Shown piece by piece: positions 5,295-40,714 of a stretch of 41,146 nt of DNA. This stretch comes from an uncultured Bacilli bacterium (GTDB taxonomy: Bacteria; Bacillota_I; Bacilli_A; RF39; UBA660): positions 1-41,146 of the forward strand of contig CANRKD010000005.1 of NCBI GenBank assembly GCA_947631105.1. The letters are read 5' to 3'. The notes beneath the pieces are model-generated. The model ran no database searches and was not told where the DNA came from. It saw only the letters and a list, made by a program, of their open reading frames with translations. Positions within the stretch are counted from its first letter, which is position 1; every line of letters starts with the position of its first letter. The position numbers were made by a program, and so were the translations under genes.

Positions 5295-6425
5295 TTATGA
5301 TAATTTCCATGGAGAATTCATTTCTCCTGTCCCACCAGTTTCTTCTAAATCAGATTTTAATATTACAATAGGACGTATTGTATGTCCTTTTGCTGCCAAA
5401 CCATCTGGATGTATTAATACATGAAAACCAATTCCACCTTCATAAGAAGAACCTACAAATCGTTGACAATACCCAGTTTGAAAATGAAATTCCCTGGAAG
5501 CCAAATAATACTCTGATGCATTTACATCCAATTTTTTACTGGCTCTAATTTTTCCTATAGCTGTTCTGACTAATGCCACATCCATTAAATAACCCATATC
5601 TCCTCCTCCTACTGATTCATTGCTATTATCTTTTGTAGATTCTTGATATGGCCATTCTTCTAAATATGTAGATGTATCTGTGATAAATTCAGTTTGTCCA
5701 TTATATCCCATTGCTCTTGCATCTATTGTATATGCACTATTTTCATAAGCTCCTGATATCATATTTAATGTCCCTACAAAATTTTTATATCCTGTTTTTC
5801 CATAGAAATATACTTCAGCACTTGATACATTTTCACTTATCATTTCGATTGTTCCGTCTTCTTTTATGTTTATTATTCTCCATGTGGTTAATTCACTTGG
5901 ATTGATGGTTTGATCTCCATTTGAAGAAGGTATATTACAATTCGATCCTTCTTCTGCACATCCTGTTAAACTTCCTGGTATTGTAAAACTAGTTGCAGTT
6001 GGTGTCATATCAACATAATCTCCTAATTTCGCTTTCTCTGCTAATGTTGCTTCACTTGTATCTGTACTAAAATTTACTGTACATATTATTCTTTTTTTAT
6101 TCTCTACTTTTATATCACTTAATGTCCATGTGATATTATTCCACTCTGCTGTTACTCCTTCATTACATTTTACTTCTTTTCCTATATAACCTGATTCTTT
6201 TGTTGGAAATGAATCGGGCAAATTTTCTCCATCTACTGTATAGGCCAGTTCTATATCTCCAAATTCAGGGATTATTCCTTGCAATACATCATAGCTTTTA
6301 CTCTCCTGGTATAGGGCATAACTCCTATATAATATTATACCCCCCCCCAGGATTGTACTTGCTATTCCTAGAGTTAGGAGGGTATTTCTTACTTTTTTAT
6401 TTTTCTTAAATTTTTCTAATTTCAT
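5295..6425 (-). CDS. Membrane-anchored surface protein with poly-G tract
   Basis: The 376-residue product has a Lys-rich cytoplasmic end (1-14) and one hydrophobic segment (about 15-33) acting as signal anchor. The rest is a long exported part. It contains TTWRIINIKEDGTIEMISE, followed by a C-terminal segment with IRPIVILKSDLEETGGTGE. That layout resembles DUF6273-like modules of Bacillota surface proteins, but the family assignment is tentative and the function unknown. Cys residues in the exported part could form disulfides. Codons 26-29 (CTG GGG GGG GGT) contain nine consecutive G in an otherwise AT-rich gene. One G fewer or more brings a stop within a few codons. The start is supported by AGGAGAGG and by a promoter at 6457-6485. 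A paralogue starts at 58. Confidence 0.8.
   Translation of the reverse strand: MKLEKFKKNKKVRNTLLTLGIASTILGGGIILYRSYALYQESKSYDVLQGIIPEFGDIELAYTVDGENLPDSFPTKESGYIGKEVKCNEGVTAEWNNITWTLSDIKVENKKRIICTVNFSTDTSEATLAEKAKLGDYVDMTPTATSFTIPGSLTGCAEEGSNCNIPSSNGDQTINPSELTTWRIINIKEDGTIEMISENVSSAEVYFYGKTGYKNFVGTLNMISGAYENSAYTIDARAMGYNGQTEFITDTSTYLEEWPYQESTKDNSNESVGGGDMGYLMDVALVRTAIGKIRASKKLDVNASEYYLASREFHFQTGYCQRFVGSSYEGGIGFHVLIHPDGLAAKGHTIRPIVILKSDLEETGGTGEMNSPWKLS
6340..6348 (-). repeat. Homopolymeric G9 tract, candidate phase-variation switch
   Basis: Nine C on the plus strand, G9 in the coding strand, lie within codons 26-29 of the surface protein. With eight G the frame reads GTA TAA and stops at codon 30. 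With ten G it reaches TAG at codon 34. Both neighbours of the present length are therefore OFF states. Confidence 0.8.
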
Positions 6426-6701: not shown

Positions 6702-7373
6702 CTAATCATCACGACGATTTCCAAATATTAAAATTAATCTTAATAGCTCTAAAGCACTTGCTAGAACTCCTGCTACATATGTACTTGCCGCCGCTATTAA
6801 CATATTAGAGATTCCTTCTTCTTCATTTTGATTAGCAAAATTTAAATGATGAATTATCTTTTTTGCTCGAGAACTTGCATTTAATTCAACTGGCAGAGTA
6901 ACTATTTGAAATATAAGACCTGTCCCTACAAAAATAATCCCTAACCAAATCAAGTTTAAAGATTCCAAAAGAATTCCAACCAACAAAATAAAGTAAGAAA
7001 TAGAAGTTGCAAAATTAACAACAGGAAAAATTAAACTTCGTACTTTCATATACAAATATCCTTCTTTATCTTGTAGAGCATGCCCACATTCATGAGCAGC
7101 AACAGCTATCGAAGCAATGGATGTTCCATGATAAATATTGGTAGAAAGACGCACAACTTTTCTTTTTGGATCATAATGATCCGTTAAATTGCCTGGCGTT
7201 TCTACAATATAAATTTCTTTTAAGCCATTTGCATCTAATATTTTTCTAGCAACTTCATATCCTGTTAACTTTTTGGCATTATCAATGTCTTTATATTTAG
7301 AAAAACTACTGGTAACAAAAATCTGAGCAATAGCGGGAATAATAAGAATTAATACCCACAACATTAAATTCAT
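6702..7373 (-). CDS. YugP-family membrane zinc metallopeptidase
   Basis: The 223-residue protein matches the YugP-type neutral zinc metallopeptidases (Zn_peptidase_2). It has an N-terminal membrane helix (about 3-22) and the zinc motif HECGHALQ near residue 127, in which the two His are ligands and the Glu is catalytic. Two or three more membrane helices follow (about 140-185 and near the C-terminus). The active site is expected close to the membrane. Substrates are unknown. It lies 26 bases after cysS and probably shares its transcript, with a terminator downstream at 6541-6569. Confidence 0.85.
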   Translation of the reverse strand: MNLMLWVLILIIPAIAQIFVTSSFSKYKDIDNAKKLTGYEVARKILDANGLKEIYIVETPGNLTDHYDPKRKVVRLSTNIYHGTSIASIAVAAHECGHALQDKEGYLYMKVRSLIFPVVNFATSISYFILLVGILLESLNLIWLGIIFVGTGLIFQIVTLPVELNASSRAKKIIHHLNFANQNEEEGISNMLIAAASTYVAGVLASALELLRLILIFGNRRDD

Positions 7374-7399
7374 ATATAATCACATCCATTTATTAAATT

Positions 7400-8791
7400 T
7401 TATTTTATTTCATAAGTTGTTCCATCACGAGAATCTTTAATAACAATTCCCATATTCAATAACTCTGTTCTAATTTGATCTGCTAATTCATAATTTTTAT
7501 TTTTTTTTGCTTCATTTCTTTTAGCTATTTGACTTTCTACAAATACGATATCAATATTTGAAGAATTAATTTCTTGCTTTGTCAAATCAAGAGATAGAAC
7601 TTTATCCCATGATTCAATTAGTGATATCTTCGTTGCATCATTGATTTTGCTTTTTAGTAAATCATAAATTAAACTAATAGCATTCGCGGTATTTAAATCA
7701 TCACTGATATAAGTTTTGAATTGACTATCATATTTATTGAAATCTTCCCTATCTATTTTACCAGTAGGAATTAACTTACTAATTTTACTTTTTAATTTTT
7801 GATAGGCTTGAGAAGCATTATCTAAAGCATTATACGAAAATACCAGTTCTTTACGATAAGAAGTATTTAAACACATAAATCGATAAGCTAAAGGATGGTA
7901 ACCTTTTTCTTCTAATAAAGAAATAGTTAAAAACTCTCCTTTTGATTTACTCATTTTCCCGGTCTCATCATTTAAATGTTCCCCATGTACCCAATAATGA
8001 CACCACTCATGACCTAAGTACGATTCGCTTTGGGCAATTTCATTCGTATGATGTGGAAATATATTATCTATTCCACCACAATGAATATCTAGATACTCTC
8101 CTAAATACTTCATACCAATTCCAGAACATTCAATATGCCATCCTGGATAACCCACTCCCCAAGGAGAATCCCATTTTAATTCTTGATCATCAAATTTAGA
8201 TTTGGTAAACCATAAAACAAAATCCGCTTGATTATGTTTAGATACATCTTCTTCTACACCATCTCTCACGCCAATAACCATTTCATCAACTTTATGATTG
8301 GTTAACTTATAATAATCACTAAGTTTCGTTGTATCAAAATAAATATTACCTCCACTTTGGTAAGCATACCCTTTTTCTAATAATGTGATAATGATTTGAA
8401 TATATTCAGCAATATTATCAGTAGCATTGGAAACAATCTCTGGCCATTTAATATTTAAACTTTCTGTATCTTTTTTAAATGCATTTGTATAAAATTTAGC
8501 TATGTCTAATACAGATTTATTTTCTCTTTTAGCTCCTTTCAACATTTTATCTTCCCCAGAATCAGAGTCACTTGTTAAATGCCCTACATCCGTAATATTC
8601 ATGACTCTTTTCACTTTATAGCCAATATAATTAAGGGTTTTTTCTAAAATATCTTCAAATATATAAGTACGTAAATTTCCTATATGTGCAAAATGATAAA
8701 CTGTAGGTCCACAAGTATACATATTTACAGTATTTTTATCGTGAGATATAAATTCCTCCACTTTATGGGTTAATGTATTATAAATTTTCAT
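7400..8791 (-). CDS. cysS: Cysteinyl-tRNA synthetase
   Basis: This class I enzyme attaches cysteine to tRNA(Cys). The 463-residue protein has the HIGH-like motif HIGN at 36-39 and KMSKS at 279-283. The zinc ligands expected for CysRS are present: Cys27, Cys222, a His in PHHTNE (about 247) and Glu251. The length is normal. It follows gltX by 58 bases with no terminator between them, so gltX, cysS and the YugP-like gene form a likely operon. In Bacillus gltX and cysS are also close together, with cysE between them; cysE is absent here. Confidence 0.97.
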   Translation of the reverse strand: MKIYNTLTHKVEEFISHDKNTVNMYTCGPTVYHFAHIGNLRTYIFEDILEKTLNYIGYKVKRVMNITDVGHLTSDSDSGEDKMLKGAKRENKSVLDIAKFYTNAFKKDTESLNIKWPEIVSNATDNIAEYIQIIITLLEKGYAYQSGGNIYFDTTKLSDYYKLTNHKVDEMVIGVRDGVEEDVSKHNQADFVLWFTKSKFDDQELKWDSPWGVGYPGWHIECSGIGMKYLGEYLDIHCGGIDNIFPHHTNEIAQSESYLGHEWCHYWVHGEHLNDETGKMSKSKGEFLTISLLEEKGYHPLAYRFMCLNTSYRKELVFSYNALDNASQAYQKLKSKISKLIPTGKIDREDFNKYDSQFKTYISDDLNTANAISLIYDLLKSKINDATKISLIESWDKVLSLDLTKQEINSSNIDIVFVESQIAKRNEAKKNKNYELADQIRTELLNMGIVIKDSRDGTTYEIK

Positions 8792-10438: not shown

Positions 10439-12607
10439 TCATACCATGTTTTTTATCAATTTTTCAACAGCAAATTCATTATTATATTTTTCAATTAAAT
10501 GTTTTAAATTTCGAAGTCCATATTTATCACATTCTGCTTCTTTTAATAAATCATTTTGATCTATTTTGTGATTATGTAAATTTTTAGAAATATATTTGTT
10601 TAATATTTCAGATGAAAAAGTTTCATAAGAAATAATATCTGTAAATCGTCCCAAAAATTCCTTAGTAAACATATTTTGAAGGGTATGATCATATTGCTCC
10701 ACAAAACCTACATTTCGCGTATTATAAACATTACTTGTCATAAAGATCATAGTATGATTAAAGTCAATTTTTTCCCCTTTAGCATCTGTAACAAAACCTT
10801 CATCTAATATTTGTAAAAACAAATTCAATACTCTAGGATGAGCCTTTTCTAATTCATCTAATAAAAGAATAGAATATGGATTTTCAAGAACTTGTCTAAA
10901 AATATAACTATCATCATATCCTACATAACCAGCACTTACTCCTATTAACTTATTAATAGACGTATCTAAATTATATTCACTCATATCTAAACGTATTAAG
11001 TTATTTTTATACATAGCACTAGCAATTACTTTAACAGTTTGCGTTTTGCCTACTCCACTTGGTCCAGTTAATAAAATAGACAAAGGTTTGGTATTATTAT
11101 TTAAATACCCCCAAATATTTTTTAAAATAGATTGTATCGCTTTCTCTTGACCAAATATTTGTTTTTTCAATTTATTTTTTAAATCATTAAATATTTCTGT
11201 TTTATTTTCTAATAAAGGAACATTAACTTTTTTAGATACTACTTCTAATATATCTTCGTATTGTATCTTATTTTCACAATTATTTTTTATTTGTTCAATT
11301 CTTTCCAAATAAGCGTTCTCTTTTTCTTTACATAAAAAAGCTTTTTCATAATCATCCTTATAAATATAATTTTCTTTTTCTTTTACAATTTGATGAATTT
11401 TTTCATTTAACTCATGTAAATCTTGAAAAGAAATACTTTTTCTTTTTTTATTTGCACAAATCATATCTAATAACTCTATAGATTTATCTGGATTACTTTT
11501 TTGTTTAATATATTGACTAGCCAAAGTAACAATATCACAAATATTTTGAGTTGTAATTTGGATTTTATGATGTTTCTCATAATCTTTTTTTATTCCTAAA
11601 AGAATTTCTTTTGTTTTATTCTCATCTGGCTCTTCTATTTGGATAGCAAAAAAACGTCTTTCTAAAGCTTTATCTTTATAAATATACTTGTAATATTCAT
11701 CGTTCGTTGTCGCCCCAATACATTTAAATTCTCCTCGCGCCAAATAGGGTTTTAAAATATCACTTGCATTAATAGCACCTTCTGCTCCACCAGCATTTAC
11801 CATAGTATGAATTTCATCTATAAATAAGATAATATTCTTATCTTCAATGATTTCTTTAATAATTTTATTTAAACGTTCTTCAAACTCACCACGATATTTA
11901 GTTCCTGAAACCAATGCACCCATCTCTAAAGAAATAATCCGTTTATTTAACAACTCAAATGGAACTTCATTATTATTAATTCTTCTTGCCAGTTCTTCAA
12001 TGATAGAAGTTTTACCTACGCCAGCTTTTCCAATTAACAGTGGATTACTTTTCTTTTTACGCAATAATGTTTCTATAATTAAATTTAATTCTTCTTCTCT
12101 TCCAATAACTTTTTCTTCAGCACATACCATTTGATTTAAATTAACTCCAATATCTTCTATTTCTAACTTTTTATTTGAATGATGTACCAAGCTTATTTTT
12201 AAATCATCATAAATTGTATCTAAATCAATATCTAAACCGAGTAATATACGTACTGCAATTCCCTCCCCTTCTTCAAGCATAGCTAAAAATAAATGTCTTT
12301 CATTAACTTGGCCATTGTTATTATCAAGAGCATCATTCATAGCTGATTCAATAATTCTTTTCAAAAGAGGGGTATACAATGTAAAATCAGTAGATTTAGT
12401 AGAAGAACCCACAACTCTTATTAATTCATCATAAAAGATTTGATAAGTTAAACCATATTCTTTTAAATGTAAACTTACTTCATTTTCCTGACTTAAAATA
12501 GCTAACAATAAATGCTCACTGCCAACATAAGGATGTTTTAATTTTTTTCGATAATTTTCTGCCTTTTTAAATAACGTTGCTACATCTATTCCATAATTTT
12601 CAAACAT
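10439..12607 (-). CDS. ClpC-like AAA+ unfoldase (Hsp100)
   Basis: The 722-residue protein has the Hsp100 layout. There is a Clp_N double repeat (1-140), then AAA1 with Walker A GKAGVGKT (193-200), Walker B FIDE (262-265) and an Arg-finger pair near 317. A short middle domain (400-445) has a UVR-like stretch KAFLCKEKENAYLERI. AAA2 has GPSGVGKT (515-522), LLLDE and R654. The short middle domain points to ClpC and not ClpB. VGF (633-635) lies where ClpP-docking loops carry [ILV]GF, so work with ClpP is likely. It is somewhat short for ClpC (about 810) and is not next to ctsR/mcsAB. It has its own promoter, whose -35 lies inside an inverted repeat, and a strong terminator. Confidence 0.88.
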   Translation of the reverse strand: MFENYGIDVATLFKKAENYRKKLKHPYVGSEHLLLAILSQENEVSLHLKEYGLTYQIFYDELIRVVGSSTKSTDFTLYTPLLKRIIESAMNDALDNNNGQVNERHLFLAMLEEGEGIAVRILLGLDIDLDTIYDDLKISLVHHSNKKLEIEDIGVNLNQMVCAEEKVIGREEELNLIIETLLRKKKSNPLLIGKAGVGKTSIIEELARRINNNEVPFELLNKRIISLEMGALVSGTKYRGEFEERLNKIIKEIIEDKNIILFIDEIHTMVNAGGAEGAINASDILKPYLARGEFKCIGATTNDEYYKYIYKDKALERRFFAIQIEEPDENKTKEILLGIKKDYEKHHKIQITTQNICDIVTLASQYIKQKSNPDKSIELLDMICANKKRKSISFQDLHELNEKIHQIVKEKENYIYKDDYEKAFLCKEKENAYLERIEQIKNNCENKIQYEDILEVVSKKVNVPLLENKTEIFNDLKNKLKKQIFGQEKAIQSILKNIWGYLNNNTKPLSILLTGPSGVGKTQTVKVIASAMYKNNLIRLDMSEYNLDTSINKLIGVSAGYVGYDDSYIFRQVLENPYSILLLDELEKAHPRVLNLFLQILDEGFVTDAKGEKIDFNHTMIFMTSNVYNTRNVGFVEQYDHTLQNMFTKEFLGRFTDIISYETFSSEILNKYISKNLHNHKIDQNDLLKEAECDKYGLRNLKHLIEKYNNEFAVEKLIKNMV

Positions 12608-12674: not shown

Positions 12675-12692
12675 AATTTATAAAATTTGTAT
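12661..12692. promoter_or_regulatory. Inverted repeat between divergent promoters, candidate operator
   Basis: ATACAAATTTT (12661-12671) and AAAATTTGTAT (12682-12692) are perfect 11-base inverted arms with a 10-base centre. The repeat covers the -35 of the clpC-like gene on one side and touches the -35 of the plus-strand RNA on the other. It does not match the CIRCE or CtsR consensus. Confidence 0.55.
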
Positions 12693-12720
12693 TGACAGTA
12701 GAAAATAAATATGATAAATT
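12692..12720 (+). promoter_or_regulatory. Promoter of the structured RNA
   Basis: A perfect TTGACA (12692-12697), a 17-base spacer and TAAATT (12715-12720) predict a start near 12727. That is exactly where the first long RNA stem begins. Confidence 0.7.
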
Positions 12721-12726
12721 TTAATT

Positions 12727-13178
12727 ACCATAGGATAGATACAAAGTTGGAATTAGACTTTATATTATCTTTCAGAAGAAATATGAAGTTTTAAATTCTT
12801 GATGTATTTGATATCTATCTTAGGGTGTATTGCTTAAGATTAATTTTTGTATTTTAGATTTTTATCTTACAATATATAAAATTAATATTAGGTATTTTAT
12901 AGTAGATACTTTTGTTATATACAATAAAAAAGGATTATTGTTTCTATGTCACATTAATCATGACTCTGTGTACACAGGAATAGAAAACAAAAGTATCGAA
13001 GAGGAGAGATGGACTCATTCAATGAGATAAAAGGATTATTTTTATTTATCATTGATGGTAAAAACTCGTAGCGATATATTGAGGTAGCTGGCTTTATATT
13101 GCTTTAGAAAACGTTAAGATATTTATTATTTAGATATTGTTTTTAGTAGAAAAGTGATTAAATTTCTGCTTTTTTTTT
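12727..13178 (+). ncRNA. Candidate structured noncoding RNA, about 450 nt, unidentified
   Basis: This 600-base gene-free stretch has a promoter, long-range pairings and a terminator, all on the plus strand. Stems seen directly: 12728-12741 with 12812-12825 (14 positions, one mismatch, one G-U); 12905-12916 with 12986-12997 (12 bp, perfect); inside it 12922-12927 with 12935-12940; 13026-13031 with 13045-13050; 13070-13078 with 13095-13103 (9 bp, one G-U). A 12-base self-complementary CTGTGTACACAG lies at 12966-12977 inside the perfect stem. No tRNA-like end or tag (tmRNA), no RNase P core motifs and no SRP Alu/S-domain signature are seen. The longest ORF across it would start with TTG and lacks a ribosome binding site. 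The identity is unknown. Confidence 0.65.
13145..13178 (+). terminator. Terminator of the structured RNA
   Basis: AGTAGAAA pairs with TTTCTGCT (8 bp, one G-U) around a 10-base loop. Eight further T follow the stem. It faces the herA-like terminator at 13187-13210, so the two transcripts converge here. Confidence 0.85.
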
Positions 13179-13186
13179 GCCTTAAT

Positions 13187-13210
13187 AAAAAAAGACATAT
13201 TTCTATGTCT
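13187..13210 (-). terminator. Terminator of herA-like gene
   Basis: AGACATA and TATGTCT form a 7-bp stem with loop TTTC. On the minus strand a run of T follows. The hairpin overlaps the stop codon of the gene. Confidence 0.8.
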
Positions 13211-14969
13211 AACTATTGATATACCATTTTTCTACTATATTAACATCTGTACTTTTTGGCATTGGATTTGGAAGATCAAACTGAGTAATCAATGGTATTT
13301 TAAACGCATTTCCAAATAATAAAGCACATCCAGGTCTTAAAGATTTAACCTTTTCTATATTATTCATGGAAATATTTGAAGAAATCGATGCAACCATTTG
13401 AATATCTTCTGGATAAAACATTCTAAAAACAATAAAATTTGAACATTGACTTAAAGCATTTGTTGATAATTCGCTAATACGTTGCGTGATAAGTCCTAAT
13501 AACAGTCCATATTTTCGACCTTCTTTAGCAATTCGATCAAAAATATTATAACCAATAATATGGATATCATTATCCATTTGCACATATCGATGAGCTTCCT
13601 CAATAATGATATTAATTGGATAACCTCCCCTATCTGGATTAGATGTTGAAAATTTATAGAATATTTTTGATAAAATTTTAATCAAAATTTTGGCAAACCG
13701 ATCATCTATGCCATTAAAATCTACATCAATTAATTGCACTAATTCATTTGTAGGAGTTAAAAATAATCTTTTTACATATTCACTTCTACCAACATTTTCA
13801 TCAAATTCAAAAAAATCTTTTAAATTACTATTAATAATACTATGTAAACTGGTTTTTAATTTATTCATTTTTTCAAAAATATTAGCATTTAACATAGATC
13901 CTTCGCTAACTAATGCAAACTCTAAAGCATAATATAAATCATCAAGAGTATAAACCGAAGGAGTTACAGAAATTTGATCGATTTGAACTTCTGAGAACTT
14001 TTTCAAATGATCTGATAATAATTCCATCGCTGCCAATTTACCTTGAGCATCTATATTAAAACATTGTCTAATAGTACGATTGTAACCTGGCTGACTAATA
14101 ATAGTTTCTAAATTGATATCTTTTGTATTAAATTTACTTAAAAAAGCCAAAGCCTGATCTCTAATTTGTTGGGCAGGCTTACCACTAGATAACATATCTA
14201 ATAACCCTTTTGCTACAATATCACTTTTATATTTATTACAAATTTCATCATTTCCCTTAAAAATATATACGTAAGTTAAAGTTTTTTCTAAAGTAGGTAT
14301 TAAAGTAGCATCATCAACATTTAACAAAATAGCTAAATCATCGGCATCTAATAAATATGGTGGGATGCGTATTGGTTCCACATTATTGCCCTCTGTATAA
14401 TTTGATGATAAAATTTTTACATTGATATCTGTATGATTATGAATATTGGTTAAAGACGAAATATATTCTCCATAAGCATCAAATAAAATAATATGACTAT
14501 TCACAGGATTTTTTTTATTATCTGCAAATAAATTTTGAATAATTCTTGCCACTCCACAAGATTTACCACCACCGGTATTTCCAACTACTGCAAAGTGACT
14601 AGAAAACAAATCATTTAATTTAACACTTATATTAAATCCATCATATATAGTCGATCTACCAAATAATAAATTATCAGGCAATAAAATATCTTGACTACCG
14701 ATTATATATTCTAATTCTTCTTTATAAATCATTCGACAAACAGAATTTATAGAAGGAAAATTCTCTGTACCTGGAATAAAAGTATTATTTCTAATCTCCC
14801 CAATTAAAGCAATGTGAAACTCAGCTTCATCTACAAAAATAATTTCTCCGACCAATTTTTTTCGATTTTCAAAAATTACATAATAGCCAATTATATCAAT
14901 TAAAGAAATTTTTTTTAAATTTTCTACTCGAATTAGTTTATCTTCTATCTTCAATATCTTACCTAGCAT
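13209..14969 (-). CDS. HerA/VirB4-like ATPase (DUF87 family)
   Basis: The 586-residue protein resembles HerA-type hexameric DNA-translocating ATPases. There is an N-terminal beta-rich HAS-barrel-like domain (1-110). Walker A is GNTGGGKS (130-137), and the Walker B segment NIIIEEAHRYV lies near 450-460. The C-terminal sensor region includes GLLLGLITQRISELS. In archaea HerA works with the nuclease NurA, and in bacteria related ATPases appear in defence pairs. No NurA, SIR2 or DUF4297 partner is encoded next to it. It lies divergent from the two WXG100-type genes, so a T7SS connection is possible but unproven. A promoter is visible at 15012-15040. Confidence 0.8.
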   Translation of the reverse strand: MLGKILKIEDKLIRVENLKKISLIDIIGYYVIFENRKKLVGEIIFVDEAEFHIALIGEIRNNTFIPGTENFPSINSVCRMIYKEELEYIIGSQDILLPDNLLFGRSTIYDGFNISVKLNDLFSSHFAVVGNTGGGKSCGVARIIQNLFADNKKNPVNSHIILFDAYGEYISSLTNIHNHTDINVKILSSNYTEGNNVEPIRIPPYLLDADDLAILLNVDDATLIPTLEKTLTYVYIFKGNDEICNKYKSDIVAKGLLDMLSSGKPAQQIRDQALAFLSKFNTKDINLETIISQPGYNRTIRQCFNIDAQGKLAAMELLSDHLKKFSEVQIDQISVTPSVYTLDDLYYALEFALVSEGSMLNANIFEKMNKLKTSLHSIINSNLKDFFEFDENVGRSEYVKRLFLTPTNELVQLIDVDFNGIDDRFAKILIKILSKIFYKFSTSNPDRGGYPINIIIEEAHRYVQMDNDIHIIGYNIFDRIAKEGRKYGLLLGLITQRISELSTNALSQCSNFIVFRMFYPEDIQMVASISSNISMNNIEKVKSLRPGCALLFGNAFKIPLITQFDLPNPMPKSTDVNIVEKWYINS

Positions 14970-15129: not shown

Positions 15130-15438
15130 ATGGCATTAGATATGAATAATGCAACATATGCACGCAGTTTATCAGGTTTAAAAGCAATGGTAGATAACGT
15201 TACCAAAGACTTAGATAAAACTATTGCTCAATTGCAACCCAAGGGAGCGTTTGTGGCTAACCTTGAATCAACTATTAGAAAATATTGGGTAGGAGAAGAC
15301 GCTGAACAATGGATAAAAGAATTTGAAACAAATGTTACAAATTGTAAAAATGTAGTTACTAAAATGAAAAATATAGTTTCAGTTCAATTGCCAGCTGAAT
15401 ATAAAGAATTTCAAGCTTTTCAAAGTAGTAATAGATAA
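15130..15438 (+). CDS. WXG100-family T7SS secreted protein (EsxA-like)
   Basis: The 102-residue protein is predicted to be two helices joined by a turn containing YWVGEDAEQW, in which W53-V-G55 is the WXG signature. The size and lack of a Sec signal are those of WXG100 proteins, which dimerise and leave the cell through EssC-driven type VII secretion. A clear C-terminal YxxxD/E is not seen, but the partner gene 20 bases downstream has one. The gene has its own strong promoter and lies opposite to the herA-like gene. Target or function outside the cell cannot be read from the sequence. Confidence 0.88.
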   Translation: MALDMNNATYARSLSGLKAMVDNVTKDLDKTIAQLQPKGAFVANLESTIRKYWVGEDAEQWIKEFETNVTNCKNVVTKMKNIVSVQLPAEYKEFQAFQSSNR

Positions 15439-15458: not shown

Positions 15459-15776
15459 ATGGCAGATATAATTGGTATTAATACGAATGGAATAACAGAA
15501 ATGAAAAAAGCTGTTACAGATTTTATAAAAGGTGTACAAAGCATGAATGTAACTGTAAGTAGTCCAGAATTACATAAAGCAATAAAAGGTACAAAAACAG
15601 AAGTGAATTGGGAACAAGCAAAGTTAGCAATGAATCAAAAAATAGTAGAATTGACAAATCAATTAAACTCTTTTAATACTAAACTGGACAATGTTAAAGC
15701 AAAATATGCTGCTAATGATGGTACCGGACAAGCACTAACTGCAACAGGTAAAATGGTAAAAGAGCTAAAAAGTTAA
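15459..15776 (+). CDS. WXG100-like partner protein with YxxxD motif
   Basis: The 105-residue protein is mostly helical, with no signal peptide. It lacks a strict WXG, but Trp51 (VNWEQAK) sits in the expected hinge between two helices. YAAND at 83-87 fits the YxxxD export motif known from T7SS substrates. Together with the upstream protein, which has WXG but no such tail, this suggests a heterodimer carrying a split signal; that pairing is inferred. AAAGGAG precedes the start, 20 bases after the first gene. A strong terminator follows at 15813-15853. Confidence 0.75.
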   Translation: MADIIGINTNGITEMKKAVTDFIKGVQSMNVTVSSPELHKAIKGTKTEVNWEQAKLAMNQKIVELTNQLNSFNTKLDNVKAKYAANDGTGQALTATGKMVKELKS

Positions 15777-16147: not shown

Positions 16148-16414
16148 TCATGATAATAAAACTAATTTTGTCCCATTACGAATATCAGTATTTAATAATA
16201 ATGTATCAGGAGAATATTGTTGACCAGTTTTAACATTAAATAATAAATTACTATTAGATTTAATAAGTTCATTATTTGTAAAATCTGATATAGTATTATT
16301 CAAAAGATTAATAATATTACCAATTTTTTTATTAACCGGTAAATATATATCATAAGATTTATCAATCTCAGGCACAATTAATCTTACTAGCACTTTATTA
16401 TTAATAACTTTCAC
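16148..16414 (-). CDS. esaB: EsaB/YukD ubiquitin-like T7SS protein
   Basis: The 88-residue protein has the beta-grasp pattern of YukD/EsaB, with strands KVLVRLIVPE and SYDIYLPVNKKIGNIINLL and the terminal strand TKLVLLS. In Firmicutes T7SS this small cytoplasmic protein is encoded beside EssC and regulates or supports secretion. Its start overlaps the end of essC by 14 bases, so the two are translationally linked. Identification rests on size, fold pattern and position. Confidence 0.82.
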   Translation of the reverse strand: MKVINNKVLVRLIVPEIDKSYDIYLPVNKKIGNIINLLNNTISDFTNNELIKSNSNLLFNVKTGQQYSPDTLLLNTDIRNGTKLVLLS

Positions 16415-19400
16415 TTCCTTCCTCTACTGTCCCTAAACACTTAATTATTTGATAATGTCCGTCAACTACTGCATAAGTTAAACCATTAAAATCTTCATTA
16501 ATATCATTATTAGTAATACTCTTGATTTTTATAGCAAGTTGTGTATCAATTCCTTTTCCAACCCATATTCCCATCGTTGAATCGACTATTGTTTTATACC
16601 AATCTTCTTTCATTATTCTTTTATAAGATGAATAATTATCTGCAAATATAAAATAACTATTGGGATATAAATGAATATTTTTAAAAATATCAAATAAACT
16701 ATTAATTCCTTCATCTAAAACTTTATCATAAATGTATCCAATACCTAATATTATATAAAGCTTTTTTATATTGTTTTTATCGTTAATTTTTATATTATCA
16801 ATATTTTGAGTAAATTCACTATTAATATATTCTAATCCAAAATTATTTGTTATACATTCCATAAAATCAATTATTTCAACTTTTATATTAGGAATAGATG
16901 ATAAAATTGATAATAAATCAACAATAAAAGCTTTTTCTATCAATAAATTACTACCTAAAATTTGAGTAATTCTTTTAGACAAAAAATTATATTTATATAT
17001 AGTTGCGTCATAAATATTTACACCAATTGGAACATTTTCTATAGTATCTATATAAGAAGATAAAGTATCTGATGTAACTATTTTAGGAATGATAGGTATT
17101 GATTTTGCTTTTCTATAAACATCTTTAACTTTTTCAAAATTTTGTTTAATAATGGAATTAATTTGATCTTTTAAATAAATATTACATGATTGAAATTCAT
17201 AAGTTCCATTATTTAAAGTAACAATACCTCGACCAAAATATTTTGAAGGAGTCAAATTGTCAGGAGCATCTAAATAAAACTTATAATCAAACGAATCTGC
17301 TAATTGTAAAGCAATTTTATTATTAAATGACTTGGAAAGACTAATTTTAACCGCATTCGGTGATACAGCTGACATCACAAAAACAATTCCGTATTTCGAA
17401 CTTTCACGAATTAAATGGCCAAAAAAATCTTCATAAATTCCATAAGACTCAACAAAAGATTCGTATCCATTTAACACTACCATTATTAAAGGAATTTTTT
17501 CTGAATTATTTTCTATATAAGATGAATAGCTTCCTCCATAATTAGAAAATAAATCTTTTCTTTTATTCATTTCACGTTCCAACATAAGCAATAAACTGGA
17601 AATCTTATTCTTATCTTCAGAAAATACAATATCACCCACTTGTGGTACTGTATTAAAAACTTTTAATATTTCTGCACCAAAATCCAATATATATATATTT
17701 ATTTCATCAGTATTATGATATATGCAAATTGAATAAATAATAGTCATTAATAAATTTTCTTTTCCAGATCCTGGATTACCATAAATTATTAAATTACCTG
17801 TATTAGTAAAATCAATTGTCAACATATTTTGAAATTGATTAGTAGGAACATCATACTCACCAATTACAGGATTAATTAAATAAGGTTTAGCAATATAATT
17901 GTATTTTTTTATAATATTAAATAAATAAATATCTTTAGGAATACTTGGTAACCATAATTGTCTAAAAATTATATTTTCTCGTTTAGCAATAGAATACAAA
18001 ATTTTTACAATATTTGTCAATTGATCACCATAGTTGACTTGATGTTCTACTTTTAATATATCATTTACTTCTTTAATTAAATTACCATTATTATTAATAA
18101 ATTGAATAGAATCATCAACATTTTTTTCTGTCCTATCTAAGGGTTGATACTTAGCTCCAGTCCAGGCAGATTGCCCAATTTCAAATAGTTCATCGTAGCC
18201 AACTTGCAAATAAAATCGACCAGTTTCTTTAATACTAGCTGCCTCAGGTCGTTTTAATAATTCATAACTATCTTCTGTACTTTGTACTTTTAAACATATT
18301 TTAAATTTTGAATTTGACCAAATTTGATCATCAACTATACCACTCGGTTTTTGAGTAGCTAATATTAAATGCACACCTAAAGATCGACCAATCCTAGCTG
18401 TAGAAATTAATTCTTGCATAAAATCTGGTTGTTGAGATTTTAACTCAGCAAACTCATCACTTATAATAAATAAATGAGATATAGGTTCTTTAACCTTTTT
18501 CATACGATAAAATTTTTGATATTTATAAATATCGACTGTACTTTCTCTTAATAAATCTCTAGCCTCATTAAATATTCTTTGTCTTCTTTTTAATTCACTA
18601 TTTATTGATACTAAAGTTCTATTCATTTCTCCAGTATCCAAATTTGTAATCGTTCCTACCAAATGAGGTAATTTTACCCCAGTATCACGATTTTCAAAAG
18701 CTCCAGCTAAACCTCCACCTTTATAATCAATTAAGACAAATTGAACTTCATCAGGATGATAATTAATAGCCATAGATAAAATAAATGTTATTATGAATTC
18801 ACTTTTCCCACTACCCGTAGAACCAGCGATTAAACCATGCGGACCATGATATTTTTCATGTAAATCTAATTCAAATACTTTACCATCAGAATGTACACCA
18901 ATTGGAGCTTTCAAACTTAAAGTCGGATCATTATTTTCCCAACGATTTAAAATATTCAATTGTTCTACTTTACCTACATTATACATTTCTAAAAAATTTA
19001 AACTATTTGGAAGTTGATTAATTAAAGAATTTGAACTAGCTGGAATATTTGCTATAAATTGTGAATAAGGCACTAAACTTTCTTCTAAATAATCTGGAAA
19101 AAAAGAACAATCTTTACTTGCATTTAAATCTTTACCATAAATGCCAGCTACATTATTTTTAAATTGAATAAATTCATTAAATTTACTAGGAATATTTTTT
19201 AAAGTAGGTTCAATCATAAGCAAAGAAAAGCCAATATTTATATCACTATTAATTATTTTTTCTATAATACCAAATTTTTTAGCTAAAATATAATTATCTG
19301 TAATTATAAGATAATATTCATCAAAATCTTTATAACTAATTGCATGAAATTTACCATCTTTATCTTTATCTTTATCTGGACTTACTTGATTTTTATTAAT

Positions 19401-20993
19401 ACGTTCATTGTAAATATTTTCTAAATAATAAGATATTTGTTTGATTTCATCCTCATTCGTAGCAAAAAAATGCATATTATTATCCATACTGTGACAATGA
19501 GATAAATATTTAACAAACTCCCAATAATCAGAATTCATTTTATTAGTAAAAATAACAATTTTTAAATCCATACCACTATAATAAGAAATCAATTGAAGCA
19601 TCATATTATTTATAATTTCTATTTTTTTATCTGTATCTTCAATTATTATGGGTAAAATTTTATTCTCAACAAGAGATATCGTAATAGGAACATCCTTTAA
19701 AATATAATTTTCATTAACAATTGTTTGAACTTCTTCTTTTAAATTATCTTCTTCTAATCTAAAATCCTCAAGAGTTGCCTCTACTTTTATGCTTGCTCTT
19801 TTATTTCCAATTCCAAGCCTAAAAGTTAAAAAATCATTATCACTTATTTCTCTACTCCATACTCTATTAGTTTTATTTTTTAAATTGTCTATTAGTTCTT
19901 TATAACTTAAATTATTTTCAAATAAAATATTTTTTTCCTGTTCCATAGCTTCTTGAATAATAATTTTCTTTTTATTTAAATAATCTTTATATTTATTTTG
20001 TCTAATCTTTTCCTTTTTCTTTATTTTTCGTTTCTGATATTTATCTAATAAAATAGGAAACAAAACACTACCTAAAATCATTGTAAAACAAATTAAGATT
20101 TCTGTAATAGCATTAACTAAATTCCCTTTGCCACTTGCTACACTAAACACAGCTATTATGCCTGTAATAGACGAAGATATTCCCATCATAACAGTAGAGC
20201 CTAAAGTTAAAATAGCTGGTGGGCCATCATCTTTTATCGCTGCTGGAGGAGCATCAATATGAACTTTCAACTCTGAAAAAGAAGATTTTAATCTGGGAGT
20301 ATGAAAAAATAATTGATCATCACTATACAATGTTACAAACCTTTCAGTACCAACTACTGGAGAAAAAATATTTCCTTGACCTAAAGTATTTAATGGTTTA
20401 TATTCTGTCAAATTAATTTTTAAATTACTATTTAATTCATTAATTAAAATAAAAGATTCCATCCAAATAATTTTCAATCCATTGGTAAAAATAATATCTC
20501 CTCTCTGTAAAATTTTAGAAAAACATCTTTTTCCATTAACATAAGTAAATAAACTCTCATGTTGCTCAGATTTTAAAATCCAATTATCTGCATTTTTTTC
20601 TATAACAAAATGCGACATTCCGATTTCTGTAATATTATATTCTATTTCACATCCACTTTTACCTAACACAATTTTAGATTTATCTAAAACAGAATATTTT
20701 GTGTATTTTAGTGGAATATCATAACAATACATTTTTATTGTTTCCCCAATATCCCCAAATTTTATATCATAAAAATTCAAATGTGAAATAATATCACTAG
20801 TTACAGCTGTAATTCCTTTTCGAACAATAAAATTGGGAGCTTCATTAATTATCCATTGATTGTTTTTGGCTGCTAAAATAATATTTTCAGAAATTCCCTT
20901 GGACGAAATATAAGTAATTAAAAAAGAATCTTCTATTTTAGAAGGTAATATAAAATCTTCCACTTTTTGATTATCTGCTATAAATATCTTCAT
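16401..20993 (-). CDS. essC: Type VII secretion ATPase EssC
   Basis: EssC is the membrane FtsK/SpoIIIE-type motor of the Firmicutes T7SS. The 1530-residue protein begins with FHA-like domains (about 1-190; for example KSKIVLGKSGCEIEYNI). Two membrane helices follow (about 265-325), then a coupling region. The first ATPase domain has a canonical Walker A GSTGSGKS near residue 724 and Walker B IISDE. The second has GNPGSGKE near 1070, where the usual Ser/Thr after Lys is Glu. The third, near 1330-1480, has no clear Walker A. Only the first site looks fully competent. It has its own promoter. EssA, EssB, EsaA and EsaD-like effectors are not in the window. Confidence 0.93.
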   Translation of the reverse strand: MKIFIADNQKVEDFILPSKIEDSFLITYISSKGISENIILAAKNNQWIINEAPNFIVRKGITAVTSDIISHLNFYDIKFGDIGETIKMYCYDIPLKYTKYSVLDKSKIVLGKSGCEIEYNITEIGMSHFVIEKNADNWILKSEQHESLFTYVNGKRCFSKILQRGDIIFTNGLKIIWMESFILINELNSNLKINLTEYKPLNTLGQGNIFSPVVGTERFVTLYSDDQLFFHTPRLKSSFSELKVHIDAPPAAIKDDGPPAILTLGSTVMMGISSSITGIIAVFSVASGKGNLVNAITEILICFTMILGSVLFPILLDKYQKRKIKKKEKIRQNKYKDYLNKKKIIIQEAMEQEKNILFENNLSYKELIDNLKNKTNRVWSREISDNDFLTFRLGIGNKRASIKVEATLEDFRLEEDNLKEEVQTIVNENYILKDVPITISLVENKILPIIIEDTDKKIEIINNMMLQLISYYSGMDLKIVIFTNKMNSDYWEFVKYLSHCHSMDNNMHFFATNEDEIKQISYYLENIYNERINKNQVSPDKDKDKDGKFHAISYKDFDEYYLIITDNYILAKKFGIIEKIINSDINIGFSLLMIEPTLKNIPSKFNEFIQFKNNVAGIYGKDLNASKDCSFFPDYLEESLVPYSQFIANIPASSNSLINQLPNSLNFLEMYNVGKVEQLNILNRWENNDPTLSLKAPIGVHSDGKVFELDLHEKYHGPHGLIAGSTGSGKSEFIITFILSMAINYHPDEVQFVLIDYKGGGLAGAFENRDTGVKLPHLVGTITNLDTGEMNRTLVSINSELKRRQRIFNEARDLLRESTVDIYKYQKFYRMKKVKEPISHLFIISDEFAELKSQQPDFMQELISTARIGRSLGVHLILATQKPSGIVDDQIWSNSKFKICLKVQSTEDSYELLKRPEAASIKETGRFYLQVGYDELFEIGQSAWTGAKYQPLDRTEKNVDDSIQFINNNGNLIKEVNDILKVEHQVNYGDQLTNIVKILYSIAKRENIIFRQLWLPSIPKDIYLFNIIKKYNYIAKPYLINPVIGEYDVPTNQFQNMLTIDFTNTGNLIIYGNPGSGKENLLMTIIYSICIYHNTDEINIYILDFGAEILKVFNTVPQVGDIVFSEDKNKISSLLLMLEREMNKRKDLFSNYGGSYSSYIENNSEKIPLIMVVLNGYESFVESYGIYEDFFGHLIRESSKYGIVFVMSAVSPNAVKISLSKSFNNKIALQLADSFDYKFYLDAPDNLTPSKYFGRGIVTLNNGTYEFQSCNIYLKDQINSIIKQNFEKVKDVYRKAKSIPIIPKIVTSDTLSSYIDTIENVPIGVNIYDATIYKYNFLSKRITQILGSNLLIEKAFIVDLLSILSSIPNIKVEIIDFMECITNNFGLEYINSEFTQNIDNIKINDKNNIKKLYIILGIGYIYDKVLDEGINSLFDIFKNIHLYPNSYFIFADNYSSYKRIMKEDWYKTIVDSTMGIWVGKGIDTQLAIKIKSITNNDINEDFNGLTYAVVDGHYQIIKCLGTVEEGSESY

Positions 20994-26797: not shown

Positions 26798-27151
26798 CTA
26801 TTCTAAACCATCTACCCATTTTCTTAATGTTCTTAAGAAAAAAGCCAAAGCAACAATAATATACAATAACTCTATAATAAGCCCCCATAACATCAATGTA
26901 TTTAAATTATTATTAAAGAAAATTCGAATACAATTATCACCAATATCTCGAATAAAAATAAACGGAATTTTAAAAATACATGTAATGATCAATAAAAGTA
27001 ACATATCTAAAAACATTTTTAAACGTTTTTTATTATCACTGTTCTTAAAAATATTGGCCAATTTCAAAAGCATATTGTAAATATTAGAAAAAAAATTGGG
27101 ATTCATATTATTCGATTCATTCATATTTTTTAATGGCTTCATAAAAATCAT
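26798..27151 (-). CDS. Small membrane protein of unknown function
   Basis: The 117-residue product has a polar N-terminal third and two or three hydrophobic segments (about 46-70 and 88-108). It ends with a basic stretch (LRTLRKWVDGLE). No family is recognised. The ATG at 27151 overlaps the stop of the upstream 588-codon gene by 4 bases (ATGA), so the two are almost certainly co-translated. A second ATG at 27142 (MKPLKN) could also serve as start. It is the last gene before a strong terminator. It could anchor the large coiled protein to the membrane, but this is only suggested by gene order. Confidence 0.65.
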   Translation of the reverse strand: MIFMKPLKNMNESNNMNPNFFSNIYNMLLKLANIFKNSDNKKRLKMFLDMLLLLIITCIFKIPFIFIRDIGDNCIRIFFNNNLNTLMLWGLIIELLYIIVALAFFLRTLRKWVDGLE

Positions 27152-28914
27152 TCACTTTCTTTAGGAAAAATATTATCTTCATAAAAAATACATGTATTTT
27201 TTACTTTCATACTTCTTATTATAATCACTTCTTCTTTTTTTACAACAGATTCTTTTTCATAATGAACAACCTTTACAAATTTAGGATTTGTTTTAATATT
27301 AACCTGATATTGCATTAAAAATAACACATTATTCTCTCGAACATCTAATTCTATATTATCTAAAATATCTAATGGTTTTACAATTTGAATAGGAGAATAA
27401 TAAATTGGCACATTTGGTTGTATATGAGATTGATAAGAAGACGAAGGATTCAAATAAGTAATATTTTTAAAATTTAAAAGTAATATTTTTTTATTTTTAT
27501 GTGTATAAAAACAATCAAAAGTATTTTCCAGTTTCATTTGAATAGAATTTAAAATATGTAATACATCAACCAAAGATTCTACAAATGCATCAAAAGAACT
27601 AATCTTTAATATACTTAAATATTTAACTCGAAGCTTTGCATTTAAATAATTATCTAGTAAATGATAACTTTCATTAAAACGATAAATTTGTTTTTTTAAT
27701 ATTAATTTACTAACAATTTCTTCTACTTTTAAAGTATCTAAATTATCAATCTCTAACAAAGAATTTAGGCATTCTCCTAAAAAAGAAGTAGTAACATGAA
27801 TAGCTGATTTTTCATTTTTAGAAAGATGATTATAAGATTTTTTTAAAATATCTACCACTTCTAAATCAGTATACTTTTTAAAAAAAATAGGATTTTCTAT
27901 TTTTGGAGGTAGTGAAATATTAGTTAAATTTTCATTATTGATTAAATAATCCCCTAAATGAACAAAATCAACTTGCAAAGCACTTTCATATTTTTCTATA
28001 ATTAATTTTTTTTCTTTATCAATATATAAATTTACATTTTCAAAATGATTACATTCACTGTTTTGATCAATTTTTTCTAACATATTTGTAATACTTTTTT
28101 TACTTTTAAAAATTTTCATTTTAGACTTTAAAGCATTATCAAGTATTTCTATTTTCTTTTTGATATCATCAATTTCAATTGGATACCTTTTTAATAAATA
28201 AACATTTTGTAGATGAATTTCATTTAAATCTATAGTTTTTAAATAGTTAATAATTTTCGTAATAAACAACTGAATTTCATCGATTGTATTTAAAGAGGAA
28301 ACTTCATCATAAAATTGACTCACTATTTTATCAGATTCATCTGTGTCATCAACTAATACTTCATAGGCTTCTAAATTATTTTGATTTGATTTATTATATT
28401 GATGCAGTTTATTATTATAAGTTTTTGTTAATTTATTAAAATTTTCTTGTAATGCTAAAACATTAATAGAAGCATTATTTTGATCTCTTAATTTTTCTTG
28501 CAATATTGAAATCAGAATACTGACAGTTCTCAATAATTGTTTCTTTTTTAAAATAATATCCTCATCTTCAAATTGTTTAGAATTTTTATCAAAGTGTTTC
28601 ATATCCTCAGTAGATAAAATATTATTTTTAAATTTATATATCACTTTAGGATCTAACTTTTCGTAATCATCAAATTCTACAACAACTTCAGGAATATTTT
28701 TATGATTTAAAAACCACCAATAACGATAAACTTCATCTTCTAATACTTCAATATCTGAAAATAATAAAACTCTTTCTAATTGTCCATAAAGTGCATTTGG
28801 CCAAATAAAGTATATTCCCCAGTTATCTTTATCTTTATATAAATAAGGTGCACGATTTAAAGAATAGAAGCCATACTTTTTTAATATTTTTAATATTTGT
28901 TCCTTTTTCAACAT
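27148..28914 (-). CDS. Large, partly coiled-coil protein of unknown function
   Basis: The 588-residue product has no signal peptide and no convincing membrane helix, so it is probably cytoplasmic. The N-terminal 100 residues are rich in Tyr and Trp (WGIYFIWPNALYGQ, YRYWWFLNHK) and look like a compact domain. Residues 120-320 are Lys/Glu/Asn-rich and helical, with coiled-coil character. The C-terminal 130 residues have a strand-rich pattern. I do not recognise a family or any catalytic motif. It was considered as a T7SS component such as EssB but lacks the membrane segment needed. RBS AAAGGGGAT precedes the ATG, and an extended -10 lies at 28943-28951. Confidence 0.7.
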   Translation of the reverse strand: MLKKEQILKILKKYGFYSLNRAPYLYKDKDNWGIYFIWPNALYGQLERVLLFSDIEVLEDEVYRYWWFLNHKNIPEVVVEFDDYEKLDPKVIYKFKNNILSTEDMKHFDKNSKQFEDEDIILKKKQLLRTVSILISILQEKLRDQNNASINVLALQENFNKLTKTYNNKLHQYNKSNQNNLEAYEVLVDDTDESDKIVSQFYDEVSSLNTIDEIQLFITKIINYLKTIDLNEIHLQNVYLLKRYPIEIDDIKKKIEILDNALKSKMKIFKSKKSITNMLEKIDQNSECNHFENVNLYIDKEKKLIIEKYESALQVDFVHLGDYLINNENLTNISLPPKIENPIFFKKYTDLEVVDILKKSYNHLSKNEKSAIHVTTSFLGECLNSLLEIDNLDTLKVEEIVSKLILKKQIYRFNESYHLLDNYLNAKLRVKYLSILKISSFDAFVESLVDVLHILNSIQMKLENTFDCFYTHKNKKILLLNFKNITYLNPSSSYQSHIQPNVPIYYSPIQIVKPLDILDNIELDVRENNVLFLMQYQVNIKTNPKFVKVVHYEKESVVKKEEVIIIRSMKVKNTCIFYEDNIFPKESE

Positions 28915-38908: not shown

Positions 38909-40621
38909 TTAATTTATAGACTCACCATTTACATATAATTTATATCCATTAAAATCAATGTTACTATTGCTACTATCAACATTATCAAGAGAAGTTATAT
39001 AACTATCACCTGTTAATTTGATTTTAGATGTTTTATCTAATTTTAATTTTATTTCTTTAGCACTATTTTCGCCATTTATTGTTCCTTCATAATAAGAGTT
39101 TTTATTCATAGTCATATCAAGATTTGAAATAGAATCTATCACAATATTTCCTTTGGCTTCTTGATTTTTCATTAATAATTCTACGATTCCACCATTTGAG
39201 CCATTGTTTCCCCAAGAATCTTTTTGAGCTCTTAAAAAATTGCCATTAGAATCATTATTGATAAACTTATTATTTTTTAAAATAATTTTTGAACTTGTAT
39301 TCGTAATATAGAAAGTATCACCTTTATTTGTAGTTATTGTAGAATCAGTAGCACTAAACTCTGATACCCCAGTAGATGCATCTCCACTCATAGATTGATA
39401 TAGAAAAATATTTTTATAAGTAGTAGATTGTCCGTTTAATTTATTATTTGTATCAGTTAAATTTACATTTTCAAGAGTAATTTTATTTTTTCCTTCAATA
39501 ACAACGCCTTCGGATGCAGTAGCAGTTAAAGAGGCGTTTTTTACTATTATATCAGCAGTTGAATAAATTGTTGGAGATCCTGCTCCAGTTGTCTTATATG
39601 TTCCACCATCAACGTTTACTGTCCCTCCTCCACGATCGGATCTAATAGCTGCACTTGATACACCAGCAGTATTGATTGTAAGATTTTTAGCAATCATAGT
39701 TCCTCCACCTGTTGTCATAATTCCTCCAGAGTTATCTTTTGTTGTTGTTATTTTAGAATCACTAATCGTTATTTGTGTACCATCACTACTAGTATTATTC
39801 GTTGTTGCACTTCCTCCATAACTAAACACACCATTTGCTCCTGTTGCATTTGTGTTTATGGTCATATTTTTAAGTGTTATGTTTGCCCCATCTTTGGCAA
39901 TAATACCTGAATTAGTACCATAGAAACTAGTATTATCACCACCATCTGAATCGCCACTTTTATCTATACCTATATTTGATAAAGTTACATCAATATCTCC
40001 ACTAACTAAAATAGCATTTTCATCCTTTGCTGTACTTTCATATTCACCACTCGTTTCAGTTGTTGATTCAGTAATTTCTTTCACAGATGAATAAGATATA
40101 TTTGTATTTTGTCCTGCTCCCATACCTTGATTTGAATTATTATTAACATTTGTACTATCTTTCAATTTGTTAACAACTAAATTTTCTGTAAAAGTAAGCC
40201 CACTTGTTAAAATAATTACTCCTAAAATATAGATTAATATTTTATCACTATTAGCAAGTGTTTCTTTTAGAGTCTTTTTATTAAATCCAGACATTATTAG
40301 GTAAAGTACAATAAGAGATAAAGTTAAACTTTCTATTCCAAAAAGAATTAAATAAATATAATTATTGGCAGCATTATTTTTTTGTGGTTCTCCCATTTGT
40401 TCCATATCACCATTATTGTTTGACATATCTGGTGGAGTTCCTATATTATTATCCCCATTAGGCATTTCAGGTAGCTCACTTCCATTTTGACTCATATCTG
40501 CCATATTATTGGTATTGCTAGTATGAGATGATTTAGTGCTTAAATAACCTGTAAATACAATACTTCCACATAGTAATAAAATAATAATAATCAATATAAT
40601 ATTTTTTATTTTTCTTTGCAT
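38909..40621 (-). CDS. Membrane-anchored beta-helix surface protein
   Basis: The 570-residue protein has three membrane segments (about 5-27, 88-110 and 125-147) and an Asn/Gly/Met/Pro-rich linker (NMADMSQNGSELPEMPNG). A large exported domain (200-560) has repeated strand-turn units such as VTLSNIGIDKSGDS, ITLKNMTINTNATGANGVF and IIVKNASLTATASEGVVIEG. This is the right-handed parallel beta-helix pattern, resembling the Cthe_2159-type polysaccharide-binding proteins of Bacillota; no catalytic residues can be assigned. Adhesion or glycan binding is likely but inferred. The start at 40621 has GAAAGTGAG upstream and opens directly with the signal-anchor; the frame is open to 40663. Confidence 0.8.
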   Translation of the reverse strand: MQRKIKNIILIIIILLLCGSIVFTGYLSTKSSHTSNTNNMADMSQNGSELPEMPNGDNNIGTPPDMSNNNGDMEQMGEPQKNNAANNYIYLILFGIESLTLSLIVLYLIMSGFNKKTLKETLANSDKILIYILGVIILTSGLTFTENLVVNKLKDSTNVNNNSNQGMGAGQNTNISYSSVKEITESTTETSGEYESTAKDENAILVSGDIDVTLSNIGIDKSGDSDGGDNTSFYGTNSGIIAKDGANITLKNMTINTNATGANGVFSYGGSATTNNTSSDGTQITISDSKITTTKDNSGGIMTTGGGTMIAKNLTINTAGVSSAAIRSDRGGGTVNVDGGTYKTTGAGSPTIYSTADIIVKNASLTATASEGVVIEGKNKITLENVNLTDTNNKLNGQSTTYKNIFLYQSMSGDASTGVSEFSATDSTITTNKGDTFYITNTSSKIILKNNKFINNDSNGNFLRAQKDSWGNNGSNGGIVELLMKNQEAKGNIVIDSISNLDMTMNKNSYYEGTINGENSAKEIKLKLDKTSKIKLTGDSYITSLDNVDSSNSNIDFNGYKLYVNGESIN

Positions 40622-40714
40622 AATTTTCTCACTTTCTTTTTTATAATCCAAAGTATAAAACACAGAAGTTAAAGAAACATTAAAAATATAAATTATTTCA
40701 TAATAATTATACTA

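Follow-up and report, generated by a model that had tools for sequence, protein, structure and literature searches.

The question raised by this locus is what fills the gene-free gap between the genes of a ClpA/B/C-type ATPase and a HerA/DUF87 ATPase in a 41,146-nucleotide stretch of DNA from an uncultured Bacilli bacterium (the window). The original prediction had placed here a structured RNA without visible identity and had guessed the two flanking genes. Both guesses were right, and the TTGACA box, the 12-bp long-range stem, the palindrome CTGTGTACACAG and the terminator are all present as described (Table 1). The window RNA has its own sigma-70-type promoter and intrinsic terminator in the sequence, which is one mark of a structured non-coding RNA. 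RNAfold gave −108.5 kcal/mol for positions 12727-13181 compared with −82.0 ± 5.2 kcal/mol for dinucleotide shuffles (z = −5.1), and none of 100 shuffles was as stable.

Table 1. Features of the RNA locus and its surroundings in the window.
Feature	Position	Strand	Basis or remark
Whole RNA gene	12727..13178	+	start inferred from promoter, end from terminator
Promoter: TTGACA, 17-nt spacer, extended −10 (TGaTAAATT)	12692..12720	+	sequence
P1 domain, 5' long stem-loop	12727..12826	+	folded in window, G008, G425, G379, G520, G515
P2 hairpin, variable, missing from some homologues	12831..12893	+	fold; hairpin also in G008
P3, 12-bp long-range stem	12905..12997	+	GATACTTTTGTT (12905-12916) pairs with AACAAAAGTATC (12986-12997)
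P3a hairpin	12921..12941	+	fold; equivalents in G008 and G330 by eye
P3b hairpin, loop CATTAATCA	12948..12964	+	loop complementary to terminator loop
P3c palindrome CUGUGUACACAG, possible self-pairing loop	12966..12977	+	GUGUACAC in 6/8, GUGCAC in 2/8
Hairpin H, GAG-[AGAUGGA]-CUC	13004..13018	+	most conserved element
P4 hairpin, absent in G330	13020..13054	+	fold
Conserved AAACUCG single-stranded motif	13060..13069	+	alignments
P5 hairpin, loop UAGCU (13085-13089)	13070..13103	+	UAGCUA palindrome in 7/8
Conserved GCUUUAGAAAA	13101..13111	+	alignment
P6: AAAAC with GUUUU around variable insertion, running into terminator	13108..13143	+	read from eight sequences
Intrinsic terminator, loop AGUGAUUAA	13146..13178	+	stem formed in 8/8
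ClpA/B/C-type AAA ATPase gene, divergent from RNA	10439..12607	−	
HerA/DUF87 ATPase gene, convergent with RNA	13209..14969	−	
WXG100-like small protein (KYWVGED)	15130..15438	+	sequence; resembles cassette protein B weakly by HMM
Second small protein beside the WXG100-like one	15459..15776	+	
YukD-like 88-aa protein	16148..16414	−	named from position and length
EssC, type VII secretion ATPase	16401..20993	−	TIGR03928, 910.8 bits vs cut-off 778.4

A DNA search of 60 related genomes for relatives of the RNA returned one true homologue, in G008 of the same genus, which was matched in two pieces. A covariance model of the window and G008 sequences then found a copy in another genus (G330) and subsequently those of G425 and G379, while a later model round added G523, G520 and G515, all in the genus of G425. 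After chance matches had been removed by motif inspection, eight copies remained, spread over three genera of a single family; the genomes that carry them were treated as AT-rich, of about 1 Mb and belonging to that family. The RNA was detected in at least 2 of 22, at least 1 of 4 and at least 5 of 37 species of the three genera, these frequencies being lower bounds from a first-look filter that scores few candidates per genome. An improved model (R2), applied to 385 genomes, revealed no further copies among the best six candidates per genome. The spread across the three genera is patchy, and phage, plasmid and viral collections gave no match at the sensitivity used.

Several other candidates were rejected. 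A 15-mer motif with two mismatches occurred in 291 genomes about as often as its reversed control, so that only exact matches were useful; its matches in viral contigs, as well as those of the P5 motif pattern, were due to chance. The exact two-motif pattern gave only chance matches in viral and genome collections, with the other motifs missing. Three one-mismatch loci (G233, G188 and G031) looked coding and were attributed to chance, and model matches in G418, G504 and G505 (E 0.016-0.19) also looked coding and lacked the motifs. Pieces found by blastn in phages and plasmids, all with E > 0.1, were likewise due to chance.

The copies of the eight species (window plus seven homologues) measure 316-452 nt, the seven homologues alone 316-449 nt, that of G523 being cut near its promoter by the contig end. 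All or most of them present the same order from 5' to 3': P1, an optional P2, P3 enclosing P3a, P3b and P3c, hairpin H, an optional P4, AAACUCG, P5, CUUUAGAAAA, P6 and the terminator. A script scan detected TTGACA/G, a spacer of about 17 nt and an extended −10 element (TGnTAnnnT-like) at the right distance in the window, G330, G425, G379, G520 and G515, and the G008 promoter was read by eye as TTGACA-17-TAGCAT. The sequence of P1 is not conserved. Both sides have changed in 10-11 of the 12 pairs of P3 and in five of the nine pairs of P5, and all four pairs of the P3b stem covary. The long stem, which the original prediction had singled out, is therefore more than a chance complementarity, as it is conserved with compensatory changes in the homologues. 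Two homologues have the variant GAG-[AAAGUGA]-CUC of hairpin H, whose stem is invariant in all eight copies and for this reason yields no covariation evidence.

The covariation analysis in relatives that had been proposed with the prediction showed that many stems covary, a further mark of a structured non-coding RNA. In a plain MAFFT alignment of the window and G008, nine pairs in four helices were changed on both sides, compared with none or one when the partner was slid by 1-3 columns. The eight sequences were subsequently aligned to a second model, in which 95% of the cells pair; changes on both sides were found in 20 of the 28 modelled core pairs (42 cells in the eight sequences), compared with 3-7 pairs when slid, in an alignment that leans towards the structure of the model used to build it. 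None of 500 shuffles reached 20 of 28 double-changed pairs. This alignment puts part of P3 in the wrong place in G520 and G330, where inspection by hand shows the stem to be formed by other segments. The unconstrained minimum-energy fold departs from the consensus by 8.5 kcal/mol in G330, 1.4 kcal/mol in G520 and 2.0 kcal/mol in G515. Since 20 of 28 pairs are double-changed against 3-7 when slid, we consider the RNA structure, as read from these comparisons, to be established beyond reasonable doubt.

Two readings would deny the gap a new RNA, and both fare poorly. A diverged copy of a known RNA (RNase P, tmRNA, 6S, SRP, raiA, OLE, ROOL or GOLLD) would be structured and of similar size range. 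However, the comparison with Rfam 15 (4227 models) that accompanied the prediction as a suggested check gave no match at the gathering score in the whole window, only chance-level matches in the gap at E ≤ 10, none of them near any gathering score, and no match at E ≤ 1 in the window, G008 and G330 loci. The OLE, ROOL and GOLLD family models gave no sequence-structure match, and the suggested resemblance to ROOL or OLE holds at most in style, homology not having been found. Housekeeping RNAs occur in essentially every genome of a clade, whereas this RNA went undetected by DNA search in most sister species of the genus; distribution and Rfam together exclude them, and a known RNA in diverged form is very improbable. 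Even less credit is due to the idea that the gap encodes a small protein or that its hairpins arose by chance. The window copy does contain a 66-codon, TTG-started ORF, but comparison of the copies revealed no ORF common to the homologues, which excludes coding, and covariation speaks against both versions. Absence of conservation and a protein-coding pattern, two outcomes named beforehand as counting against a structured RNA, were examined and neither was seen. By the sequence evidence, what the gap contains is thus almost certainly a free-standing gene whose product, a conserved and structured non-coding RNA, belongs to a family absent from Rfam.

Loop sequences point to contacts beyond the helices. 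UGAUU is found in the terminator loop of all eight copies, and TGATT loops occurred in 7 of the 53 terminator-like hairpins of the loci examined, all seven from the RNA itself, the terminator of the eighth copy falling below the stem filter of this count. The terminator loop can form 5-7 Watson-Crick pairs with the P3b loop (UAAUC) in all eight copies, which are related sequences, whereas 2000 shuffled-loop controls showed such complementarity in a mean of 0.74 and a maximum of 4 of 8 copies. Both loops are nearly invariant, so that the evidence is one of complementarity and not of covariation. A kissing loop between P3b and the terminator hairpin is a good candidate and would probably form. 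The 12-base self-complementary sequence in the long stem, which had been suggested as a possible site of dimer contacts, is real, and every homologue keeps 6-12 self-complementary bases there; the P5 loop of the window retains AGCU of the longer palindrome of the other copies. Conservation and complementarity, not covariation, are what these palindromic contacts rest on, and they make self-association of the RNA plausible, with the odds about even. In OLE and GOLLD, palindromic loops pair between two RNA copies as symmetric kissing loops, and OLE dimerises partly via a palindromic loop that switches among GGCC, GAUC and AGCU, while raiA was a monomer in cryo-EM (PMC12286853). Given the pairing of such loops in OLE and GOLLD, a homodimer or ring is a fair prediction here rather than a result.

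We next consider the gene context, for which predicted genes around the copies were clustered by protein. The RNA lies inside or near a type VII secretion system (T7SS) locus in seven of the eight genomes. In G008, G425, G379 and G520, a WXG100-type substrate cassette of three small proteins (A, B and C) is followed by the RNA on the opposite strand, EssC and an 86-aa protein in the YukD position. The RNA also adjoins the cassette in G515 and G523, with no EssC in the stretch examined, which in G523 reaches the contig end. The window shares the ClpC-HerA neighbourhood of the RNA with G008, and has EssC at a distance of 3 kb from the RNA; together with the small partner of EssC and another, different pair of WXG-type proteins, it lies 2-8 kb away. 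EssC of the window, G008 and G520 scores above the TIGR03928 (NCBIfam) cut-off. The 88-aa protein of the window clusters with the 86-aa protein beside EssC in four other genomes and has no NCBIfam match; the WXG100-like protein matches neither Pfam nor NCBIfam. In the eighth genome, G330, the RNA is situated between the methyltransferase gene on the rpoB side and rplL in the ribosomal/RNA-polymerase region, with no T7SS gene in 19 kb, and this copy keeps the main motifs.

The surroundings offered some further observations. In one relative, ClpC and HerA stand on either side of a type VII secretion locus; this and the place of the RNA between substrate cassette and EssC in relatives form the most informative context, which is absent from the original prediction. 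The HerA-like ATPase adjoins T7SS genes in two genomes. With the anti-phage HerA model, whose cut-off is 850 bits, the HerA-like ATPase of the window scores only 149 bits and hence does not belong to that family. A W-x-G motif like that of WXG100 secretion substrates is present in cassette protein B, and A and B are fused in G008 into one protein of 236 aa (L038:10540-11250). Protein C (L038:10212-10481 and equivalents) is small and acidic, with 50 conserved N-terminal residues and an LNDLF-like (LNxxF-like) C-terminal end, and is possibly a T7SS chaperone or targeting factor. The small cassette proteins have no convincing Pfam or NCBIfam match. Two near-identical tandem A-B-C cassettes stand beside the RNA in G523 (L293:5972-6981 and 7230-8230). 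A UPF0236 transposase-like gene (L249:9999-11396) adjoins the G330 RNA and may mark transposition or insertion there. Window proteins of 588, 584 and 376 aa (27148-28914, 38909-40663 and 5295-6425) have no Pfam match.

From this context we infer a T7SS-related function of the RNA, to which we lean over its rivals. The RNA would fold compactly through the kiss of P3b with the terminator hairpin, and, in the manner of OLE and GOLLD, its copies would pair with one another through the palindromic loops of P3c and P5 to give a homodimer or ring. The folded particle might then act in trans on T7SS expression or assembly, as regulator or scaffold, with the invariant hairpin H (AGAUGGA loop) and the AAACUCG segment as its binding sites for a protein or mRNA of the T7SS. 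The G330 copy, which keeps the main motifs away from the T7SS, argues for an ability of the RNA to act in trans.

The position of the RNA would also suit a cis regulator of the T7SS operon, which would work by opposite-strand transcription with promoter competition or interference, the RNA fold being secondary. In G008, G425, G379 and G520 the RNA is transcribed on the opposite strand between cassette and essC; its transcription converges on the cassette and diverges from essC, whose start lies about 0.1-0.2 kb from the RNA promoter. Interference, however, requires no conserved motifs, palindromes or compensatory changes, and the structure is kept in the window and G330 copies, which lack those immediate neighbours. 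Cis interference accounts for the position but not for the conserved structure, and we consider it unlikely. Conservation of the structure and the loops, which are kept even in the one copy located elsewhere in the chromosome, suggests that the RNA is more than an antisense transcript. Slightly more weight, though still little, falls to a selfish or mobile-element RNA, or to cargo of a T7SS island serving itself or, for example, phage defence or competition. The patchy spread (at least 2/22, 5/37 and 1/4 species) makes this possible, one copy lies beside a UPF0236 transposase, and ROOL and GOLLD are likewise often linked to mobile elements. On the other hand, no mobile gene is common to the surroundings of the copies, the phage, plasmid and viral collections were without a match at the sensitivity used, and one particular gene cassette adjoins the RNA in six genomes. 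Taken together, we put a probability of roughly 0.6 on the overall reading, namely a structured RNA of a new class that acts in trans, probably associates with itself and is linked to type VII secretion.

As a broad kind, large structured RNAs without an assigned function are already known from bacteria, and what is new here, near certainly as judged from sequence, is a previously uncatalogued family and its gene context. To our knowledge, no structured RNA is known as part of type VII secretion loci. The literature on T7SS and small or antisense RNA held no such structured RNA, and the family may possibly be an unannotated entry among 3161 gut-metagenome candidates (PMC8040213). It represents a covariation-supported RNA class without known relative and, if it acts on the secretion system, would offer a way to reach the control or assembly of the T7SS through an RNA.

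Among known systems, raiA, too, is a structured RNA conserved in bacteria whose exact function is unknown, and differs in that the present RNA has no Rfam match. The packaging RNA (pRNA) of phage phi29 associates with itself by way of loops and works with a packaging ATPase of FtsK/HerA type. It is an analogy only, suggested by the neighbouring EssC (FtsK/SpoIIIE) and HerA-like ATPases, and we claim no relation in sequence or structure. By this analogy one may speculate, at long odds, that a ring or dimer of the RNA, assembled through the palindromic loops, attaches to EssC, an ATPase of FtsK/HerA type, or to its WXG100 substrates, which would make the T7SS a ribonucleoprotein machine or place it under direct RNA control. 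OLE resembles the window RNA as a bacterial structured RNA with conserved palindromic loops, but it is about 600 nt long, has a different gene context and no Rfam/OLE match links the two; dimerisation, moreover, is only predicted here. With ROOL and GOLLD, to which no homology was detected, the RNA shares a free-standing gene, many stems, kissing loops (here candidate ones) and a patchy distribution, whereas it is shorter and its multimer is a prediction. If self-associating, it would be a compact addition to the few natural RNA-only oligomers and easier to study than GOLLD or ROOL.
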